From an uncultured Clostridia bacterium (lineage in GTDB: Bacteria; Bacillota; Clostridia; Oscillospirales; Ruminococcaceae), in assembly GCA_947631455.1 (NCBI GenBank), contig CANRLH010000009.1, positions 1 through 61,169 on the forward strand: a stretch of 61,169 nt of DNA, written 5' to 3'. Both the position numbers and the translations under genes were made by a program. Under the pieces are notes generated by a model. It made no database searches and had not been told where the DNA came from. It saw only the letters and a program-made list of their open reading frames with translations. Below, one piece after another: positions 9,772 through 19,147 of this stretch. Positions within the stretch are counted from its first letter, which is position 1; each line of letters starts with the position of its first letter.

Positions 9772-10965
9772 ATGCTTACACTTGACAAGGTTTATCACGC
9801 TTCACTTATTTTAAAGGAAGTTATAAGAGATACCGATATGATATTCGCGCCAAAGCTCAGCAGGGATTGCAATGTCTATCTGAAAACGGAAAATCTTCAG
9901 ACAACAGGTTCTTTCAAGGTTAGGGGAGCTTACTATAAGATTTCTCAGCTTACTGATGAGGAAAAGTCGAAGGGAGTTATAGCCTGTTCGGCGGGTAACC
10001 ACGCACAGGGAGTTGCGCTTGCCGCCACAAAGGCAGGCATCAGATCTATAATCTGCCTGCCTGACTCAGCCCCGATCTCAAAGGTAGAGGCAACAAAGGC
10101 ATACGGAGCGGAGGTTTGCCTTGTCAAGGGCTGCTATGACGACGCATATCAGCGAGCTCTTGAGCTTCAGAAGGAAAAGGGCTTTACGTTCATTCATCCT
10201 TTTAATGATGAAAATGTCATTGCGGGTCAGGGAACGATAGGTCTTGAGATTTTAAATCAGCTTCCGGATCTTGACGCTGTTATTGTGCCGATAGGCGGCG
10301 GCGGACTGATCTCAGGCGTGGCGTTTACAATAAAGCAGTTAAAGCCCAAGGTAAAGGTTTACGGCGTACAGGCAAAGGGCGCTGCAAGTATGTTTAACTC
10401 CGTAAAAAACAAAGAAATACAGTGCCTTAACAGCGTGTCTACAATAGCGGACGGGATTGCCGTAAAGGAGCCGGGCGACAAGACCTATGACCTTGTCAGT
10501 ACATATGTTGACGATATAGTCACCGTCAGCGACGATGAAATTTCATCAGCTATTCTAACGCTTATGGAGCAGCAAAAGCTAGTTGTTGAGGGCGCGGGAG
10601 CGGTTCCGGTCGCTGCGGTTATGTTTGATAAGCTGCCTATCAAGGGTAAAAAGGTTGCGTGCCTGCTATCAGGCGGAAACATTGATGTAACAATACTGTC
10701 AAGGGTGATCAAGCGCGGACTTATTATGACGGGAAGGACCGTTCAGCTTATGATAGAGCTCATCGACAAGCCCGGACAGCTTAAGGGCGTTGCGGATATA
10801 ATCGCCAAAATAGGCGGAAACGTAATATCCATTCACCACGAAAGGGCAAATGAAGGACAGGATGTAAACGGCTGTTTTTTGCGTATGGTGCTTGAGACAA
10901 AGGATCAGGCTCATATAGATGAGATAGTCACGGCGCTTACAGACGCCGGCTATCATCTTTGCTGA
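9772..10965 (+). CDS. ilvA: threonine ammonia-lyase (threonine dehydratase)
   Basis: PLP enzyme deaminating L-threonine to 2-oxobutanoate, the entry to isoleucine synthesis. The cofactor lysine is in TGSFKVRGAY near residue 48 and the phosphate-binding glycine loop IGGGGLISG near residue 178. A C-terminal ACT domain (about residues 325-397, with IELIDKPGQL) provides amino-acid feedback. At 397 aa it has the one-ACT-domain short form, shared by catabolic TdcB-like and many Clostridia enzymes. The isoleucine-type T-box leader and the ridA partner 15 bases downstream both support a biosynthetic or dual role. Confidence 0.94.
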   Translation: MLTLDKVYHASLILKEVIRDTDMIFAPKLSRDCNVYLKTENLQTTGSFKVRGAYYKISQLTDEEKSKGVIACSAGNHAQGVALAATKAGIRSIICLPDSAPISKVEATKAYGAEVCLVKGCYDDAYQRALELQKEKGFTFIHPFNDENVIAGQGTIGLEILNQLPDLDAVIVPIGGGGLISGVAFTIKQLKPKVKVYGVQAKGAASMFNSVKNKEIQCLNSVSTIADGIAVKEPGDKTYDLVSTYVDDIVTVSDDEISSAILTLMEQQKLVVEGAGAVPVAAVMFDKLPIKGKKVACLLSGGNIDVTILSRVIKRGLIMTGRTVQLMIELIDKPGQLKGVADIIAKIGGNVISIHHERANEGQDVNGCFLRMVLETKDQAHIDEIVTALTDAGYHLC

Positions 10966-10980
10966 GAAAGGAAGAAAGAT

Positions 10981-11352
10981 ATGGAAAAGATTTACACAGA
11001 CAAAGCGCCTGAGGCGCTGGGCCCGTATTCACAGGCGATAAAGGCGGGGGATTTTGTTTTCACCTCCGGACAGATCGCCATAAATCCGGCCACCAATACA
11101 ATTGAGGGAAAAACGATCGAGGAGCAGACAACACAGGTTATGAAAAATCTGACGGAGGTTTTATCTGCGGCGGGGACTACTCCGCAAAAGGCGGTAAAGA
11201 CGGTTTGCTTTTTAAAGAATATGTCAGACTTTGCGGCATTTAACGAGATATATGCAAAGACATTTACACAAAAGCCGGCAAGGAGCTGTGTTGCCGTTAA
11301 GGAACTGCCAAAGGACGTTCTGGTTGAGGTAGAGGTTGTCGCTTTGGCGTAA
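10981..11352 (+). CDS. ridA: RidA family enamine/imine deaminase
   Basis: Hydrolyses the reactive enamine/imine intermediates released by threonine dehydratase, protecting PLP enzymes. The 123-aa product has the typical GPYSQAIKAGDFVFTSGQI start and the catalytic arginine in PARSCVAV, with the closing LPKDVLVEVEVVAL. It directly follows ilvA in the same transcript, the functional pairing expected from established RidA biochemistry. Confidence 0.95.
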   Translation: MEKIYTDKAPEALGPYSQAIKAGDFVFTSGQIAINPATNTIEGKTIEEQTTQVMKNLTEVLSAAGTTPQKAVKTVCFLKNMSDFAAFNEIYAKTFTQKPARSCVAVKELPKDVLVEVEVVALA

Positions 11353-11403: not shown

Positions 11404-11997
11404 TTACAGATATTTTTTTCTTACTCTTTTAAGCATATGCCGGAATGGCAGATAGAGTATCAGTATAAACACGGCGTTAAATATCATATGGGATATGTTA
11501 AATACAAGTCCGGTTAAAATAATCGTCGAGGCATATGAAACAGTCATAGTTTCAAAAAGGCTTGCGACCGTATAAAGGTCTGTTATGACAGAGAAAATTG
11601 CTCCTGCGAATACGGAATATACAGTCATTGCCGCAAGAGAGGAGCCGACTTTTGTTTTTGCGATAACCCCGGCTAAGACGCCTGTAACGCCCCACGCAAG
11701 CATCTGAAAAGGCGTCCACGGGCCGTGCCCGAGAGCAATATTTGATACTGCGGCGCAAAGAACGCCTGTCATAAAGCCATCTGCCGGGCCAAGACACGCT
11801 CCGGTGATGATAACGATAGCTGTTACAGGCTGTACCTGAGGTATAAAGGCAAATATTATGCGTCCCACAGAGCCTATTACCACAAGCATGACTATCGGCA
11901 TAAGCCGTGCGGCAGACGGCTTTTTAAGTTCAAAGCAAGCTAAGAATGCGGCTATGATAATAATGATGCTAATTACAGCCGCAAGATAACCGTTCAC
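11404..11997 (-). CDS. cbrT: ECF transporter S component, CbrT-like (cobalamin)
   Basis: Substrate-binding membrane subunit of an energy-coupling-factor importer, 197 aa with about six hydrophobic helices. The segments VQPVTAIVIITG and HGPWTPFQMLAWG resemble those I associate with CbrT-type S components, which transport cobalamin/cobinamide in Lactobacillus. It is the last gene of the operon and overlaps the ATPase gene by 4 bp. The cobalamin riboswitch at the head of the operon supports the B12 assignment. Substrate specificity is inferred, not shown. Confidence 0.82.
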   Translation of the reverse strand: MNGYLAAVISIIIIIAAFLACFELKKPSAARLMPIVMLVVIGSVGRIIFAFIPQVQPVTAIVIITGACLGPADGFMTGVLCAAVSNIALGHGPWTPFQMLAWGVTGVLAGVIAKTKVGSSLAAMTVYSVFAGAIFSVITDLYTVASLFETMTVSYASTIILTGLVFNISHMIFNAVFILILYLPFRHMLKRVRKKYL

Positions 11998-13550
11998 TCT
12001 GCACCTCCCAGCTGACTGCTCAGGGCAAGTCCGTCGCAGATGCCTCTTGAGGCTCTGGCAAGCGCGGTGGTGAAAAAGCTGTTTTTAAAAACAAATTCAC
12101 AAGCTGCGTTAAAGCATATGATCTCACCGCCGAAAAGCATTGAAATATCATCGCATATTTCAGTAAGAAGCTCAATATCGTGAGAGGATATAACCACTGC
12201 GGTGTTCTTTTTTATTTCGTTAATAAGGCTTATGAAGTCAGCCTTTGCGTAAGGGTCAAAGCCTTTGGCCGGTTCGTCAAGAAATATAATTGACTTGCCG
12301 CAGACGAGCGCTTTAAAAAGTGCCGCAAGCTGAAGCTCTCCGCCGCTTAGGTCATACGGGTGCTTTGAAAAGAGCCTGTCGATTTTATTAAAAATAGCAT
12401 ACCTTTGAGATATTCTGTGTATTTCCGCGGTGTCAATTTCCGACATTTCGCACATAAATTTTATGTCTTCCAAAACGCTGTCCTTTACAAAGGCAAGGCG
12501 CGCGTCCTGGGGAAGATAAACTGACCCGCCGCAGGATTTCACCCTGCCGGCATAAGGCTTTCTAAGTTCTGCCAGAACCTTCATAAGCGTTGTTTTTCCG
12601 CTGCCGTTTGCACCGCAAAGTCCCATGGCTCTGCCTTTTTTTATTTTCAGAGAAATGTCCTTTAAAATGTCGTCGGATTTTTTATCGTAGCGAAAATACA
12701 CATTTTTTGCAAATATCGAAGCCTCTCCGCAGCCGGTTAAAGAAGGTTTCATTGCCGAGTACCGCACGCCGTTTTTTTGTATGTACTCTCTTGCCTGTTT
12801 AACTGTTTTAATCAATTTGTCTTTGCACAGCGGAATAAGCGGGCCTGCGACAAGACAGAGAGGGTCGTTTTTTCTTAAAAGCTTTAAAAACACTTGGTCG
12901 GTTTTTCCAAAATCAGACACCCTGCCGGCATCAAGCACCAGAACCTTGTCGACCAAAGGAAGAACATTCTCAAGCGAATGAGATGATATGACGATGCTTG
13001 TTCCAAGCTCGTCCTTTAGCTTTCTCAAAGCGCCGGTAAGCTTGTCACAGCTTATAGGGTCAAGCTGTGAATAAGGCTCGTCCAGAATGATGACCTCAGG
13101 AGATAATACGCTTACTGCGGCGAGGTTTACAAGCTGGACCTCTCCCCCTGAAAGCTCGCTCATTTTTTTTGTTACCATATCGGTTATGCCGAAAAATTCG
13201 CATACCTCAGCCGTTCGGCGTCGGATATCGTCTGAGCTGATTCCAAGGTTTTGAGGGGCAAAGCATATCTCGTCGTAAACCGTTTCGCAAACAGACTGGT
13301 CAAACGGATTTTGAAAAACAAAGCCTGTTTTTGATATGTCATCAGACGAAAAAATAACCCTGCCTAAAAGCTCTCCTTTTGGGCTGACGCTTTTTTTCAT
13401 AAGTCTTAAAAGGGTGCTTTTTCCGCAGCCTGACCTGCCGATCACAGCCAGCGTTTCTCCCTTGTTCATATCAAACGAAACATCGTGCAAGGCGTAATCC
13501 TTCTCGCCCTCGTATTTAAAGCTTAGATTTTCGATTTTAAACAGTGCCAT
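11994..13550 (-). CDS. ECF transporter ATPase, two ABC domains in one chain
   Basis: A 518-aa fused energising ATPase of the ECF importer. The first ABC unit has Walker A GRSGCGKST (near residue 35), signature LSGGEVQLVNLA and Walker B VIILDEPYSQLD. The second has GANGSGKTT (near residue 315), signature LSGGELQLAAL and SIIFLDEPAKGFD. Most ECF systems use two separate EcfA/EcfA' subunits; here both are one polypeptide, as in the predicted cobalamin module called CbrU. I chose MALFKIENLSF, which has AGGAG 5 bases upstream, rather than the longer frame. It overlaps ecfT by 28 bp. Confidence 0.9.
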   Translation of the reverse strand: MALFKIENLSFKYEGEKDYALHDVSFDMNKGETLAVIGRSGCGKSTLLRLMKKSVSPKGELLGRVIFSSDDISKTGFVFQNPFDQSVCETVYDEICFAPQNLGISSDDIRRRTAEVCEFFGITDMVTKKMSELSGGEVQLVNLAAVSVLSPEVIILDEPYSQLDPISCDKLTGALRKLKDELGTSIVISSHSLENVLPLVDKVLVLDAGRVSDFGKTDQVFLKLLRKNDPLCLVAGPLIPLCKDKLIKTVKQAREYIQKNGVRYSAMKPSLTGCGEASIFAKNVYFRYDKKSDDILKDISLKIKKGRAMGLCGANGSGKTTLMKVLAELRKPYAGRVKSCGGSVYLPQDARLAFVKDSVLEDIKFMCEMSEIDTAEIHRISQRYAIFNKIDRLFSKHPYDLSGGELQLAALFKALVCGKSIIFLDEPAKGFDPYAKADFISLINEIKKNTAVVISSHDIELLTEICDDISMLFGGEIICFNAACEFVFKNSFFTTALARASRGICDGLALSSQLGGAE

Positions 13551-14332
13551 TTTAACTCCTCTTTTGTCTGATACAAAGCAGGCAGCAAAAGCCAGATGCA
13601 AAGTGAGATAACGCCCGCCGCAGCATCAAAAAATAAGTGTATTAAAAGCATGACCGCCGCCGTGCAAAACACTATGCCGTCGTCTTTTTTCAGCTTCATT
13701 TTATAAACGGTGGTTTTACCCTTAAGTTCAAAGCCTCTGCCTTTCATTGAGATACCCTTTATGACCGAGCTTTCAAGTGCGTTTTGAGATACCGCCAAAA
13801 GCTCAGTGCTTAAGAGCCTTATGTTTTTAAAAAATCCCTTTTGCCCTTTAATGAAACTTTTGCGGCAGTCAGAAACATCCTCTGAGCGTCTTTTCAAGTC
13901 ATTAGTGCTTTTGTGTATCATTGAAAGCATAAGAGCAGTTGTGGGTAAGATTTTCGACAACAGGTGAAAAGCTTTGTTTGAATTTATAAGCTTAAAGGAT
14001 ATCTGAAACCACAGTATAAGTGTAAGTACCATCATGCCCGAGCGAATTCCCAGCATCAATGCCTCAAGTGTATAAGGATCATCGTTTACATAAAACAGGG
14101 GAGTGCTGCCCGCGTGATTGAATAGCGGATTTATAAGGATCAGCAGAGTCACTGTCGGTAAACAAAAGAGTGCCGTTTTAAAGCACTCTGAAAAAACACT
14201 GTAAAAAATACATATTACAAAGCAGGGAATAAGATACATAAAATCCTGAGCGCTTATGCAGATAAGCACAAATGAAAGGAAACAGTAGCATACTGCCGCT
14301 AATTCGTTTAAATTTCTGAAATGTAAAGCCAA
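13523..14332 (-). CDS. ECF transporter T component (EcfT/CbrV-like)
   Basis: Transmembrane coupling subunit linking the S component to the ATPase, 269 aa with about five or six hydrophobic segments. The cytoplasmic coupling region contains SSVIKGISMKGRGFELKG, matching the short x-R-G motif of EcfT proteins that contacts the ATPase. The start is probably TTG (MALHFRNLNE), because GGAGGG lies a few bases before it; a second in-frame TTG 12 bases upstream overlaps that site. The stop of the preceding lipoprotein gene is 15 bases away, so translation is likely coupled. Confidence 0.82.
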   Translation of the reverse strand: MALHFRNLNELAAVCYCFLSFVLICISAQDFMYLIPCFVICIFYSVFSECFKTALFCLPTVTLLILINPLFNHAGSTPLFYVNDDPYTLEALMLGIRSGMMVLTLILWFQISFKLINSNKAFHLLSKILPTTALMLSMIHKSTNDLKRRSEDVSDCRKSFIKGQKGFFKNIRLLSTELLAVSQNALESSVIKGISMKGRGFELKGKTTVYKMKLKKDDGIVFCTAAVMLLIHLFFDAAAGVISLCIWLLLPALYQTKEELKWHCLKSKI

Positions 14333-14347
14333 TTCACCCTCCAAAGC

Positions 14348-15265
14348 TTATGAATGCGTAACGTATATCCACTCCACAACGTCGCCTGATTTTAGCACAT
14401 ATTTGTCGCATGAAACTCCCGGCGTTTGTCCATTTACCTTAAATGTCCAGCCGCTTTGCGCTCCGCAGTCTTTTTCAGAAAGACCTGCTATTGAATACAC
14501 GTAGTTTCCGTAGCTTGAGCTTCTATATTCAAATACCGCATTTGAGTTTTTATATGTTTCTCTTTCGGTTTTTAAAGCAAGCTCAAGAGCGTCGAACACA
14601 GTAGAGCCCTCGGTAATGGTTATCTTACTGTAAGCCGGGATAAGCACTCCGTCTTTAGGAAGAGCATTTTTTACGTTCTCTTTAAGGCTTGGGTTCACCA
14701 GTATCGAAGATACGTTGATCTCCTTTTGTGAAACGCTTATCTTCGCCTTAGCCGCACTTTTTGAACTTCCGGGATTTGTGCCGCTTTCTGAAACGATTAC
14801 CTGTGTTTTAGGAGCAGAAGACGCAGCTTTTGAAGTCGAAGTGCCGGGTCTTTTTTGAGCGCCTGCCGCTTCTGATACGTACTTTTGTGAATAAACCTTT
14901 TCATACTCGGTAACGTAATAGCTGTAAACGGATTGGCTGCCGTTTGCGGGAACAGTCGTCACAAGCGGGTCCTGATTGCCGTTTGATTTTGCGTTATTGC
15001 CTTTTTCAGCCGGATCCTTACTGTTGTCGGCAGTATCGTCAGTCTTTTCAGACTTTTTATTTGTTTTGTCTGTATTATCGGTACTGTCCGTTAAGTTCTT
15101 GTCGATCGCCTTGTCAGTTTCTCGCTGCGCTTTTTCACCGCTTTTTTTGTCTGCCGCTTCAGAGCTTGATACCTTGCTTTCGTGCTCCTCAACAGATTCC
15201 ACGCTGCATGCGCAAAACGAAACAGACATAACAAGAATCATAAAAAATATGAGAAATTTTTTCAT
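14348..15265 (-). CDS. DUF4430 (transcobalamin beta-domain-like) lipoprotein
   Basis: Predicted surface lipoprotein of 305 aa. The signal peptide ends in a lipobox, VSFCACS, placing the lipid-modified Cys near residue 20. A long Ser/Lys/Asp-rich spacer (about residues 25-180) leads to a DUF4430 domain (about 190-305) with the characteristic SGWTFKVNGQTPG and LKSGDVVEWIYV motifs. DUF4430 is related to the C-terminal beta domain of animal transcobalamin and intrinsic factor. Together with the riboswitch and the ECF genes this points to cobalamin capture at the outer membrane face. Direct binding is inferred. Confidence 0.85.
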   Translation of the reverse strand: MKKFLIFFMILVMSVSFCACSVESVEEHESKVSSSEAADKKSGEKAQRETDKAIDKNLTDSTDNTDKTNKKSEKTDDTADNSKDPAEKGNNAKSNGNQDPLVTTVPANGSQSVYSYYVTEYEKVYSQKYVSEAAGAQKRPGTSTSKAASSAPKTQVIVSESGTNPGSSKSAAKAKISVSQKEINVSSILVNPSLKENVKNALPKDGVLIPAYSKITITEGSTVFDALELALKTERETYKNSNAVFEYRSSSYGNYVYSIAGLSEKDCGAQSGWTFKVNGQTPGVSCDKYVLKSGDVVEWIYVTHS

Positions 15266-15293
15266 TACCCCTGCTCCTTGAATTGTTTAGAGT

Positions 15294-16487
15294 CTATCTT
15301 TTCTTGCTTGATACAATAATCCCGATAAACATAAGTGCCGCCGCAGAAATTGCAATACTCTTAGATTCTGCTCCCGTATTCGGATTTGAATCTCCTGTCT
15401 GTGCGGTGCTCGGTTTTACGTCGGTGCTGTCAACAGTGATTTCCTGTTTGTTATCAGTTGTGCTTTCAAAAGTCATTTCACCGTTGGAATTTGTCGTATC
15501 GGTTGATTCGGTCGCGGCATCGGTAGAAGCCTCGGTGCTTGTCTTATCGTCGTTTGCCGGAAGATAATCATAATAAGCCACAAGCGCGGCTTGCGCGTCC
15601 TTTGCGGCGTATATGCTTTCGTCTCCTGCGTAAAGATAAGCGCCGTCTGTTTCTGATGATTTAAAGCCCATGAGATAATTGTACGCCTCATCGGCTTTTT
15701 CACTGTCGTTTACAGCGGCAAACGCTCTTAAAGCAAGCGCTGTGGAATCCGGATTTCCGTATTCGGAAGCATAGTCCGCTGATGAATCATAGCCGTCCGC
15801 TCTTTTCATATTTTCGATATATCTAAGAGATTTTTCGACCGCGTTCTTTACTGCTTGGTCGGAATCCATATAAGGAGCAAGAGCTTCAACAAACACTCCG
15901 TTGTTGTCGGTAGAAATTCCCCAATAGTCCATGCCGCCGGTTTCGCCGTTATCCGTATAATAAGCCATAATGGCGTCTTTAAGCCTTGCCTTGACATCGT
16001 CGCTGACACCTGTCAGCCTTGCCGCCTTAAGAGCCTCACAAAGGTGATACGGGTTGCTTACAAGTGAAAGATCGTAATTTGAGATAATATCGGAGAGGTT
16101 ATATCCGCCTATGTCTGATGTGTCTACTCCCATCTTGTAAAGCGCAATTGCAGCGCAGGCTTCATACATGAGAGATTCTCCCGTTTCGCCGGTATATGAG
16201 TCTGTAAAAATAAGCTTTCCGCCGTTTTGCTTAAGCGAGTCCTCAACGCTTAATATGTAGCTCTCCTTAAAGCTTTCATCAGCCGCTCCGGATACAATAG
16301 CCCCCAGAGCATAGTCGTTTTGATAACCTGCCTCTGGGTTTTGAGTCAATAGATACTCAGAGGTTTTTAAAAGTTCGTCAAAAACCTCGTTTTTTTGCGC
16401 CGCAAAAGCTGATGTAACCGATGCTGATACCAAAACCGCCGCAGTCAGCGTCGCTGTCGCTGCTTTTTTTGCAAATGTTGTTTTCAT
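15294..16487 (-). CDS. wall-anchored alpha/alpha-barrel protein (transcobalamin alpha-domain-like)
   Basis: Secreted 397-aa protein with a signal peptide (about residues 1-31, cut after SAFA), a helical-repeat region (about 35-320) resembling the prenyltransferase/squalene-cyclase fold, an acidic Thr/Ser-rich linker, and a C-terminal sorting signal: NPNTG, a hydrophobic stretch, then KKR. Animal transcobalamin combines this helical barrel with a DUF4430-like beta domain; here the two are encoded by adjacent genes. I infer that this protein is the barrel half of a surface cobalamin-binding unit. The start at MKTTFAKK follows AAAGGAAG; the longer frame runs back into the riboswitch and is rejected. 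Confidence 0.82.
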   Translation of the reverse strand: MKTTFAKKAATATLTAAVLVSASVTSAFAAQKNEVFDELLKTSEYLLTQNPEAGYQNDYALGAIVSGAADESFKESYILSVEDSLKQNGGKLIFTDSYTGETGESLMYEACAAIALYKMGVDTSDIGGYNLSDIISNYDLSLVSNPYHLCEALKAARLTGVSDDVKARLKDAIMAYYTDNGETGGMDYWGISTDNNGVFVEALAPYMDSDQAVKNAVEKSLRYIENMKRADGYDSSADYASEYGNPDSTALALRAFAAVNDSEKADEAYNYLMGFKSSETDGAYLYAGDESIYAAKDAQAALVAYYDYLPANDDKTSTEASTDAATESTDTTNSNGEMTFESTTDNKQEITVDSTDVKPSTAQTGDSNPNTGAESKSIAISAAALMFIGIIVSSKKR

Positions 16488-16639
16488 TTTCTTTTTTCTT
16501 CCTTTCGTTTTTTGTTTTGTAAAACCGATCTGCAAAAAACCTGACAGGAAACGAAGAAAGAAAAAGTGTAACACAAATAAGCCGTCTAAAGACAGCTTGT
16601 TTTTGCGCCCGATCCTTGTTCCTATTGCCCAAACAGGTT

Positions 16640-16836
16640 TCAAGCATATGCCCCGGCAGGTCTCCTGACTCATGTATCATTCTAATAAGACGTCCTTCTC
16701 ACACATATAAGCGCAATGGATATACGTCTGTTCGTCCTCATTTACAGTAGTGGCTGCTGTGCGGGATTTTCACCCGCTTCCCTTTTAAAAGCAACGCTTA
16801 AAAAGCTTTCTTCACCGTGACATTTCACGTTATTTT
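16640..16836 (-). promoter_or_regulatory. cobalamin riboswitch
   Basis: On the minus strand I read, in order, a GGGAAGCGGGTGAAAATCCC element, ACAGCAGCCACTACTGT and the B12 box GTCAGGAGACCTGCC (complement of 16655-16669). These are conserved pieces of the AdoCbl/MeCbl riboswitch. A consensus-like promoter lies directly upstream. It heads the alpha-barrel, DUF4430 and ECF operon. The expression platform is not clear: the roughly 150 nt between the B12 box and the first start contain a short AAGCTGTC/GACGGCTT stem without a convincing T run next to it. Confidence 0.93.
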
Positions 16837-16844
16837 ACATTTTT

Positions 16845-16873
16845 ATAATAGCATAAACGGTTTTATTTGTAAA
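16845..16873 (-). promoter_or_regulatory. promoter of the cobalamin operon
   Basis: On the minus strand, TTTACA and TATTAT are separated by 17 bp, placing the RNA start just before the riboswitch. Confidence 0.7.
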
Positions 16874-16992: not shown

Positions 16993-18894
16993 TCAAAGCC
17001 TTGTGTGTCTGTTCGGTTTTGCAAACTTATTTTTGTACATCATCTTATCCGCCCTGCTGAGAATGTCTTTTAACTTTGTGTTCTGGTCAATATCGCATAT
17101 GACATATCCCACTGAAGCGTCAACCTTGTACTCATTGTTATTCGCATCATTATATCTTTTGAGGTATTTTTCAAATTGATGGATCATGTCCGTTACAGAC
17201 TGCTGAGTGTAATCACCGTAGCCAATAACGACAAATTCGTCTCCGCCTATTCTTGCGCATATTTCGTTGTTAAGGCAGGCATAGCTCAAACCGTTTGCTA
17301 TTATTCTTAGAGAAACGTCTCCTTCAAGATGCCCGAACGTATCGTTGATGTATTTAAGCCCATCCATATCGCAGGATATCAGCATGAATTTTTTGCCCTG
17401 CTGCTTTGCGTTTTGCATAAATTCGTCTGAGTACTTGTCATATCCGCTTCTGTTGTAAATTCCGGTAAGTTTATCCTTTATTGAGTTAAGATATGTTATG
17501 TGGTTAAGGCTTTCAAGGTATATCTTTGTGCGCAGAAATTCAAGACCGTTTGTAAGCGCCTTGTGCCAGTCCCAGAAGGTTTTTCCGCATACAACAGTAT
17601 TAGTGCTCTGCCATACTACCGAAAAGCCAAGGCATCTGTTGTTGAAATGAACTGGAAAAAAGCTGAATGTGTTAGGAACGTCTCGCTCCTCCCATAAAGG
17701 AGGAAAAACCTCGCTCACGTCAAATGTAAAGCGCTTATCGATGTTACGGCACATAGCCAGCATTTGCTTTGAATATCCTGTTTTTATGTAGTTGTGCTGA
17801 GCTTCGAGAGAATCCCAGTCCTTGCAAAGGCAAAGGTCATAAGCGTATTCGGTGTTGCTGTCCCCGGCGCCGAAAATGTAAGGCGTTTTCTGAAGGTGGT
17901 CGATAAAGTCGTTCATCGTAGGGGCGTTGGCAAGGCATTCAAACATATTTGCGGTTCTGAAAAACTCTCTGCATATTTGCTCGCGCCGTGTTCTTCTTCT
18001 CATTTCTCTTACGTTGAGAGAATTGTCCTCAAGACAGCCGCAGCTTTCGCCTCTGATGACAAAGCCTCTGTGCAGATTCAACGTTTCGCATTTTTCTCCC
18101 GTGATGATTTCATAAAGCTTTGCGCAGCCCTCTGCGCCCACCTGAGCGTCCGGTACCTTGTATGTGCATATGGTCGGAACATTGTCTCTTGATTCGGGGA
18201 TCCCGTCATAGCCGACTACCGCAATTTCTTCAGGCACCTTATGACCAAGCTGCGTAAATCTCTCAACAAAAAACATTGCCATTCTGTCGTTTGCGCAAAC
18301 AAGAGCCTGAGGAGCCTTGATTTTTCCGCTGTGGATGTTGTCCGCAAGATTATACGCTGCGTCTGCCCAGTAATCGCCGTAAATGCATCGGTCCTCTCTT
18401 ACATACAAGCCTTTTTCGGTGAGGATGTCCTTATATGCGGCAAGTCTTTCCTCGGCCTGAAAAGTGTCCTTAAGACCTGTCAGGCACATTATATCAGTAA
18501 AGCCGTGAACGTCAATAAGATGAGCGACAATATCTTTAAAGGGAGTCCTCTCGTCCTTTAAAACGCAAGGGAACAGATCGGTCGAATAGTCTACGCTTAC
18601 GACCGGCTTGCCGGTATTTTTGAGCATATCAAACAGTTCGTTTCTCAGACCGGAATCATTAAACAACGCACCGGGAATTAAAAAGCCGTCAAATTTTTCT
18701 GGATTTATGAGGTTGAAAATATTTTTTTCTCCGTCAAAAAATTCACTGACATAGTTGTTTTCGTCAAACATACTAAAGACCGCCACATCACAGTCAAGAG
18801 CATATGCCTGAGAAATTATTCCCTCTAAAACCTCTGTAGGGTAGGATTCATCAATGCTTCTTGCGAGTACCGCAAAGCACATTCTTTTCTTCAT
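16993..18894 (-). CDS. diguanylate cyclase with PBP1/LacI-type sensor domain
   Basis: A 633-aa protein likely to make cyclic di-GMP. Residues about 3-290 resemble a periplasmic-binding-protein/LacI ligand domain (for example KPVVSVDYS and EEIAVVGYDG), usually a sugar or small-ligand sensor. A middle region of unknown fold follows, then a C-terminal GGDEF domain (about 465-633) with an intact RIGGDEFVV catalytic loop and SCDMDGLKYINDTFGH. No signal peptide or membrane segment is evident, so both sensing and catalysis are cytoplasmic. The start at MKKRMCF has AAGGGGG upstream. Its neighbours give no ligand clue. Confidence 0.88.
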   Translation of the reverse strand: MKKRMCFAVLARSIDESYPTEVLEGIISQAYALDCDVAVFSMFDENNYVSEFFDGEKNIFNLINPEKFDGFLIPGALFNDSGLRNELFDMLKNTGKPVVSVDYSTDLFPCVLKDERTPFKDIVAHLIDVHGFTDIMCLTGLKDTFQAEERLAAYKDILTEKGLYVREDRCIYGDYWADAAYNLADNIHSGKIKAPQALVCANDRMAMFFVERFTQLGHKVPEEIAVVGYDGIPESRDNVPTICTYKVPDAQVGAEGCAKLYEIITGEKCETLNLHRGFVIRGESCGCLEDNSLNVREMRRRTRREQICREFFRTANMFECLANAPTMNDFIDHLQKTPYIFGAGDSNTEYAYDLCLCKDWDSLEAQHNYIKTGYSKQMLAMCRNIDKRFTFDVSEVFPPLWEERDVPNTFSFFPVHFNNRCLGFSVVWQSTNTVVCGKTFWDWHKALTNGLEFLRTKIYLESLNHITYLNSIKDKLTGIYNRSGYDKYSDEFMQNAKQQGKKFMLISCDMDGLKYINDTFGHLEGDVSLRIIANGLSYACLNNEICARIGGDEFVVIGYGDYTQQSVTDMIHQFEKYLKRYNDANNNEYKVDASVGYVICDIDQNTKLKDILSRADKMMYKNKFAKPNRHTRL

Positions 18895-19147
18895 TATTAT
18901 CCCCCTTTTGGCGGATAAATAATACACGTCACATTTATCCGTACAATTCATTTTAACACGATTTTAGTTTTTGTTCGTTAACAAAATATTAAAAATTTTA
19001 AATTTTCTGTTAATTGTTAAGAATGATTAACTATATCCGATTTTGATTTTGTATTATGCTCATATACTTAAAAAGCTTATGCTTCCGGCGGCAGTTTTTG
19101 AAAACGTATTACAAAAATCAGAATAGCGAATAAAAAGCCGCCGCCTC

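Follow-up and report, generated by a model that had tools for sequence, protein, structure and literature searches.

The BtuG and BtuH proteins of Bacteroides are well studied and, to our knowledge, the capture of vitamin B12 ahead of an importer of the energy-coupling factor (ECF) type in Gram-positive bacteria unable to make the vitamin is poorly known. The operon considered here lies at 11404-16873, on the minus strand, of a 61,169-nucleotide stretch of DNA (the window; GenBank assembly GCA_947631455.1, contig CANRLH010000009.1, positions 1 to 61,169) from an uncultured Clostridia bacterium of the Ruminococcaceae. Behind a promoter-like site and a cobalamin riboswitch it encodes, in this order, an alpha/alpha-toroid protein, a DUF4430 (transcobalamin C-terminal-like) protein, EcfT, a double EcfA and a CbrT-type S component. 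Its architecture, a split transcobalamin plus ECF-CbrT, is well supported, and it is probably the cell's corrinoid capture-and-import operon, in which the two surface proteins would act as the halves of a clamp.

The animal carriers transcobalamin, intrinsic factor and haptocorrin consist of the same two parts, an alpha/alpha toroid and a transcobalamin-type beta-grasp domain. Unlike them the window operon, known here from sequence and models, encodes two chains, one with a sorting-type tail and one with a lipoprotein-like start, and is tied to an ECF importer and a riboswitch. Burroughs et al. defined the transcobalamin-like beta-grasp clade in 2007 and noted bacterial toroid fusions, some with Gram-positive anchors (PMC1796856). 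In the passages compared, they report that the SLBB/toroid surface proteins are as a rule encoded in predicted operons alongside CbiO and CbiQ, remark on missing key enzymes of B12 synthesis, propose B12 scavenging and gene transfer to animals, and mention SLBB domains that stand alone, some operons that encode a second SLBB protein, and a single beta-propeller fusion (PMC1796856). B12 scavenging by toroid and transcobalamin-type proteins beside CbiO/CbiQ is thus already known as a proposal. The words riboswitch, CbrT and lipoprotein are absent from the main text of that paper, and the passages compared describe no separate-chain toroid (PMC1796856). New here are the link to CbrT and the riboswitch, the repeated change between split and fused forms, several modes of anchoring, the putative membrane hairpin that 24 of the 39 fusions have, and operons in which a propeller takes the place of the toroid.

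The transporter ECF-CbrT is already characterised (PMC5997447; structure 6fnp). The window S component is homologous to CbrT over most of its length and likewise accompanied by EcfT and EcfA; unlike the described transporter, its ATPase domains share one chain and its motor is encoded in the operon, and the main text of PMC5997447 mentions neither a riboswitch nor a lipoprotein. In Bacteroides, B12-binding surface lipoproteins are proposed to load the transporter in the BtuG/BtuH/BtuB system, whose loci carry riboswitches, as here; that system differs in belonging to a Gram-negative outer membrane and a TonB-dependent transporter (PMC10404256). BtuG itself is a beta-propeller with sub-picomolar affinity for B12, and the shared beta-propeller type is its likeness to the toroid stand-in of some relatives of the window operon (PMC10404256). 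The open-licence literature, covered mostly as titles and abstract starts and with subscription journals mostly outside it, contained no recognisable experiments on B12 binding by bacterial DUF4430 proteins or on a split pair, and nothing on this system under SCO2321-type or sortase-anchored B12 proteins.

The operon and its products

The operon type is real, well formed and widespread. Its features in the window are as follows.

16873-16845, minus strand: promoter-like site TTTACA-17-TATTAT, TG ahead of the second hexamer (consensus scan only)
16834-16638, minus strand: cobalamin riboswitch aptamer, RF00174 (98.5 bits, E 2.2e-23)
16637-16488, minus strand: leader from aptamer to start codon, possible expression platform (fold -45.1 kcal/mol, z -1.85)
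16487 (ATG)-15294, minus strand: secreted alpha/alpha-toroid protein with C-terminal NPNTG tail (sequence and predicted fold)
16397-15483, minus strand: toroid stretch of 305 aa submitted to folding (pLDDT 89.7, pTM 0.86)
15386-15372, minus strand: NPNTG motif of the sorting-type tail (sequence)
15386-15297, minus strand: match to NF033846, an NPXTG sorting-signal model (below cut-off)
15265-14348, minus strand: DUF4430 protein, lipobox-like FCAC followed by a low-complexity linker of about 180 residues (open reading frame and Pfam)
14608-14360, minus strand: DUF4430 domain, PF14478 (62.1 bits; 65 bits in the genome-wide search)
14344-13523, minus strand: EcfT, CbiQ-type transmembrane coupling subunit (through PF02361 matches of relatives, and BLASTP)
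13550-11994, minus strand: double EcfA ATPase, two ABC domains in one chain (the frame opens at 13601; ATG at 13550 likely)
11997-11404, minus strand: CbrT-type S component (6fnp_A match)

A first-pass annotation of this DNA had placed a cobalamin riboswitch at the head of the operon, which was borne out: the RF00174 match covers the full model (1-189), scores far above the cut-off of 31.5 bits and is the single one in the whole genome. The leader behind it contains a hairpin at 16598-16579; in the fold of lowest energy its Shine-Dalgarno region is paired with a pyrimidine-rich stretch, which makes an action on translation or termination plausible. The promoter call is weak taken alone, since two such sites were found in the region against 1.4 expected from shuffles.

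The EcfT, double EcfA and CbrT-like S component of the same annotation were likewise confirmed. The window EcfT by itself has no Pfam match; five of six relatives at its position match CbiQ (PF02361) at E<0.01, four of them above cut-off, and the sixth, which has no such match, aligns with the window protein at 29% (BLASTP pair E 1e-27). The best NCBIfam models of the double EcfA are ECF ATPases, at 269.6 and 267.6 bits and below their cut-offs of 330 and 315; against solved structures, EcfA accounts for seven of the 12 rows at E 1e-30, and Rv1281c takes the first two places. For the S component, a search with the single sequence hits solved CbrT (6fnp_A) at E 1.2e-9 and a profile search does so at 2.2e-22, the next S components following at 0.003; Pfam labels the protein ECF-ribofla_trS (40.2 bits). 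With a CbrT homologue, an EcfT and two EcfA domains the set qualifies as an ECF transporter of the CbrT type, its ATPases standing below the NCBIfam cut-offs.

The toroid protein begins with a signal-peptide-like stretch and has no Pfam match above cut-off. Its predicted model is an alpha/alpha toroid, and fold comparison matches it to known toroids, among them transcobalamin (2v3n) at E 5.6e-4. By comparison, PF01122 (Cobalamin_bind) gave no match in the window protein and matched one of 50 toroids (E 0.0014); VIA-align gave no transcobalamin among the 50 matches listed, which is no proof of absence; and searches of solved-structure sequences with toroid and fusion profiles returned terpene cyclases and other toroids, with no transcobalamin. 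The animal carriers are recognised through fold comparison only, the sequence profile searches having given other toroids or nothing. It is very improbable that the protein is an enzyme, of terpene cyclase-, epimerase- or glycosidase-like kind, sharing the operon by chance: it is secreted and bears a sorting-type tail, it is linked to CbrT across genomes, and in relatives it forms one chain with DUF4430.

That tail consists of NPNTG, a hydrophobic segment and KKR. NF033846 scored 16.7 and 21.8 bits on it, both below the cut-off of 23.5, so that the protein is not assigned to that family; in the genome, which encodes two sortases, five NPXTG-type ends were found at E <=0.01, three of them above cut-off and the toroid's being the fourth. 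Judged by eye, and given those three proteins and the two sortases, the tail is likely a sorting signal. The wall-anchored barrel of the first-pass annotation thus stands as far as the predicted fold and the NPNTG tail go, and falls short in the NF033846 score.

Its companion was described there as a DUF4430 lipoprotein. The domain is secure, with PF14478 far above the gathering cut-off of 23.8 bits and matching nowhere else in the genome; the FCAC start was read as lipobox-like by eye, and the lipobox search pattern rejects its second C. A DUF4430 profile found no match among solved-structure sequences. On sequence and predicted fold, the window toroid corresponds to the alpha domain of transcobalamin and intrinsic factor, and the DUF4430 protein to their beta domain. 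The pair may work like a transcobalamin; being encoded by two open reading frames (16487-15294 and 15265-14348) and not as a single polypeptide of toroid and beta-grasp domain, it is not classed as one.

The host genome measures 1.92 Mb, with a completeness estimate of 99.99%. CbiD, the sole B12-biosynthesis gene searched for, was not found in it; neither was a permease of the FecCD/BtuC type, for which the same search was positive as a control in 13 of 14 genomes. The B12-binding domain has two matches, of which the one above cut-off is MetH (homocysteine methyltransferase, pterin-binding and B12-binding domains). The host appears to be a scavenger that depends on B12, and no importer other than this operon was recognised in it.

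Occurrence in the family and beyond

To place the operon among its relatives, a survey was made of 148 genomes from the host's family, sampled evenly out of a larger group. CbrT was found at E <=0.001 in 56, and 42 of these were counted as strong (E 8e-31 or better); the other 14 matched at E 7e-10 or weaker, many in frames of about 170-190 aa. DUF4430 is present in 41/42 strong-CbrT genomes versus 32/106 others (p 2.6e-15), and a toroid in 35/42 versus 15/106 (p 2.0e-15). No genome-wide association of riboswitch and CbrT was seen, RF00174 occurring in 31/42 genomes with strong CbrT and 70/106 without, no clear difference. The sole listed genome of the same genus (G074) has no toroid, DUF4430, CbrT or RF00174 match.

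Occurrence of the operon under unrelated riboswitches, which would count against the reading of the first-pass annotation, was not seen. Among 35 family regions at strong DUF4430 or toroid matches, Rfam models identified RF00174 in 18; an AdoCbl-II riboswitch in a further region brings the cobalamin type to 19. The sole other regulatory RNA was a T-box in L050, some 6 kb away from the toroid gene.

Outside the family, 80 named CbrT loci were examined, the best 80 of at least 591 candidates by likeness to the window CbrT and not a random sample. By their titles they are mostly Bacillota, with some Coriobacteriia, one member of the Propionibacteriaceae and two called only "bacterium". Gene calling relied on a simple greedy script, so that some genes were missed or misread, among them genes in L054, L092 and L119. 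DUF4430 occurs in 63 of the 80 loci. By domain content on the CbrT strand, 20 have a split toroid with DUF4430, 11 a fusion, eight a fusion and another DUF4430, six both fused and split forms, nine DUF4430 with a beta-propeller, nine DUF4430 alone and one a toroid alone; in 16 none was recognised, 11 of these being cut at the start.

A riboswitch covariance model built from 17 of the riboswitches, with matches counted to E 0.1, gave 44 matches in 42 of the 80 loci, every one on the same strand as CbrT. Four matches, in L101, L118, L122 and L147, are located downstream of CbrT, and those of L118 and L147 precede a second DUF4430-containing gene. After removal of 19 loci cut at the start and eight without a called CbrT reading frame, 53 uncut operons remained, and in 32 of these a riboswitch match lies within 3 kb of the first recognised gene. 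A few misses (L119, L137) arise because large unrecognised genes intervene.

Split, fused and propeller-bearing forms

In relatives, fusions of toroid and DUF4430 occupy the same place in the operon as the separate pair of the window. When a natural fusion was folded, transcobalamin, intrinsic factor and haptocorrin chains filled the top 15 Foldseek rows, at E 2.5e-11 to 3.4e-8; the beta domain of this fusion fits that of human transcobalamin (5no0) with TMt 0.80 and rmsd 2.2. These results uphold the proposal that the halves of a transcobalamin are encoded here as separate surface proteins.

The split form is not unique to the window and recurs among relatives. A quick tree of 92 toroids, where split and fused refer to domains within one called reading frame, comprised 39 split, 40 fused and 13 not linked to CbrT; it omits the toroids of L088, L142 and L175 (near-duplicates or cut copies) and stretches shorter than 190 or longer than 420 residues. 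L043 counts as fused in it despite an additional separate DUF4430 protein, and the fusions number 40 in the tree and 39 in the anchor survey below. Split and fused forms are clustered yet interchange repeatedly, with a minimum of 14 changes, seven of them forced by well-supported branches. The window toroid groups with that of L064 (support 94, a pairing that the program marks as a meeting of two long branches) inside a six-member, all-split group; its exact place is unsure, since that group is weakly supported (85). Toroid proteins with neither CbrT nor a riboswitch-model match within 11-13 kb are found in L158-L168, L173 and L174, two of them with a DUF4430 domain.

Anchors and hydrophobic segments were called from simple patterns and hydropathy. 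Among 45 split toroid reading frames, 13 combine an LPXTG-like motif and a hydrophobic segment at the C-terminus, 17 have the segment only, three have an end resembling the S-layer homology (SLH) domain, eight have none found and four are short matches. The 74 separate DUF4430 proteins under 400 aa carry a lipobox (37), an N-terminal hydrophobic segment (33) or neither (4). In 24 of the 39 proteins with toroid and DUF4430 on one chain, the order is toroid, two hydrophobic segments, DUF4430; the segments would form a membrane hairpin that leaves both domains outside. The NCBIfam family of SCO2321 membrane proteins gives weak matches to eight of 14 fusions, and in the one examined the score lies far below cut-off. 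In proteins of L091, L101, L134 and L147 only a short linker separates toroid and DUF4430, which stand in direct tandem like those of animal transcobalamin; the C-termini of these proteins appear SLH-like by eye. With 39 of the 92 toroid rows split, 13 of the 45 split reading frames LPXTG-like and a precedent from 2007 (PMC1796856), the first-pass annotation overstated the split wall-plus-membrane pair as a rarity.

In L040, L046, L052 and L065 the toroid's position, downstream of a cobalamin riboswitch and upstream of a DUF4430 protein, is taken by a surface protein whose beta-propeller is of PQQ_2 type. The Pfam match is above cut-off in L046, L052 and L065 and weaker in L040; LPXTG-like tails, read by eye, are clear in L046 and L065 and looser in L040 and L052. 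Propellers occur in nine of the 80 named loci, several within larger DUF4430-containing proteins. Burroughs et al. read extra domains such as the propeller as possible polysaccharide tethers, and a tether remains a rival reading of the propellers seen here (PMC1796856). A propeller also replaces the toroid beside DUF4430 in CbrT-type operons of L075, L095 and L097.

Two loci hold a cobalamin riboswitch followed by a short DUF4430 protein (L169, 3714-5225; L171, 3774-4506). In L169 a 171-aa S component, distantly CbrT-like, adjoins DUF4430, with no EcfT or EcfA recognised within 9 kb; this is possibly a minimal version that draws on a shared ECF module.

Proposed capture and hand-over, and alternatives

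The capture-and-import reading is carried by the riboswitch, the identity of CbrT, the failure to find CbiD or a BtuC-type permease, the two sortases and MetH as the sole clear B12 enzyme found, together with the co-occurrence of DUF4430 and toroid with CbrT in the 148 genomes and the one-chain fusions that resemble animal carriers. We infer cobalamin binding, affinity, docking on CbrT, hand-over and the order of events as follows. At low cobalamin the riboswitch would open; the DUF4430 domain, on its long linker, would grip a corrinoid, and the wall-held toroid would cover the opposite face, giving a tight sandwich at the boundary of wall and membrane. Beside CbrT the clamp would reopen and pass the vitamin to the S component, and the EcfT-EcfAA motor would drive it inward at the expense of ATP, after which it would supply MetH and close the riboswitch. 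In this two-chain form one half would sit in the wall and the other at the membrane. Cleaved human intrinsic factor is a precedent that two separate halves can suffice: as described in PMC6257451, its fragments IF30 and IF20 keep tight cyanocobalamin binding and form IF30.Cbl.IF20, a complex recognised by cubilin.

Two observations weigh against a sandwich. Of the 50 toroids compared none is more divergent than that of the window, which keeps 18 of the 55 columns conserved among bacterial toroids, and ten of the 53 uncut operons have DUF4430 and no recognised toroid or propeller. Together they make a relay the chief rival, in which DUF4430 alone would be the B12 receptor of CbrT and the wall toroid would act independently, as a collector further out or as a helper, binding either corrinoid by itself or something else, comparable to BtuH/BtuG. 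DUF4430 is indeed the constant part; a beta-propeller takes the toroid's position in some operons, short DUF4430 proteins follow the riboswitch in L169 (with its small S component) and L171, and work is divided between BtuH and BtuG in Bacteroides (PMC10404256). The 39 proteins with both domains in one chain, and the folded fusion that is best matched by the two-domain animal carriers, argue the other way, and we regard a relay as unlikely.

The cargo of the split clamp could also differ from cobalamin, the same apparatus serving mainly cobinamide or another cobamide such as pseudocobalamin. Gut users of B12 salvage several vitamers, and both known families of B12 transporters accept alternatives, as stated in PMC6593275; nothing in the operon data fixes the lower ligand. 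We nonetheless hold such a preference to be improbable.

A broader scheme, which we advance tentatively and with less conviction than the split clamp itself, is a modular B12 clamp. Its constant, membrane-side jaw would be DUF4430, docking on CbrT, and its outer jaw would be interchangeable, a toroid or a PQQ-type beta-propeller. This outer jaw could be a protein of its own in the wall, the S-layer or the membrane, or could be linked to DUF4430 by a membrane hairpin. On this view the transcobalamin of animals would be one frozen, secreted version. The exchange of split for fused and of toroid for propeller about a constant DUF4430 is the part most worth testing, and the split pair is convenient in that its halves can be expressed and titrated separately. 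If the proposal is true, many Bacillota and Coriobacteriia possess a transcobalamin-like capture system, and competition for B12, the origin of the animal B12 carriers and the loading of ECF S components become testable with purified domains.

Some further arrangements were noted. In L039 (9579-12149), L070 and L147 CbrT is joined to the C-terminus of the double EcfA, giving ATPase and S component in one chain. A single reading frame of CbrT and DUF4430 in L047 (3374-5254) was considered as a clue to hand-over and set aside; its CbrT part is truncated and a deletion or assembly artefact is likely. Directly upstream of the window operon, at 16993-18951 on the minus strand, one protein combines a LacI-type periplasmic-binding-protein domain with GGDEF. 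Converging on the operon from the other side, at 9772-11352 on the plus strand, are a PALP-family PLP enzyme with a weak ACT match, which we take to be threonine dehydratase-like, and then a Ribonuc_L-PSP (RidA-type) protein.

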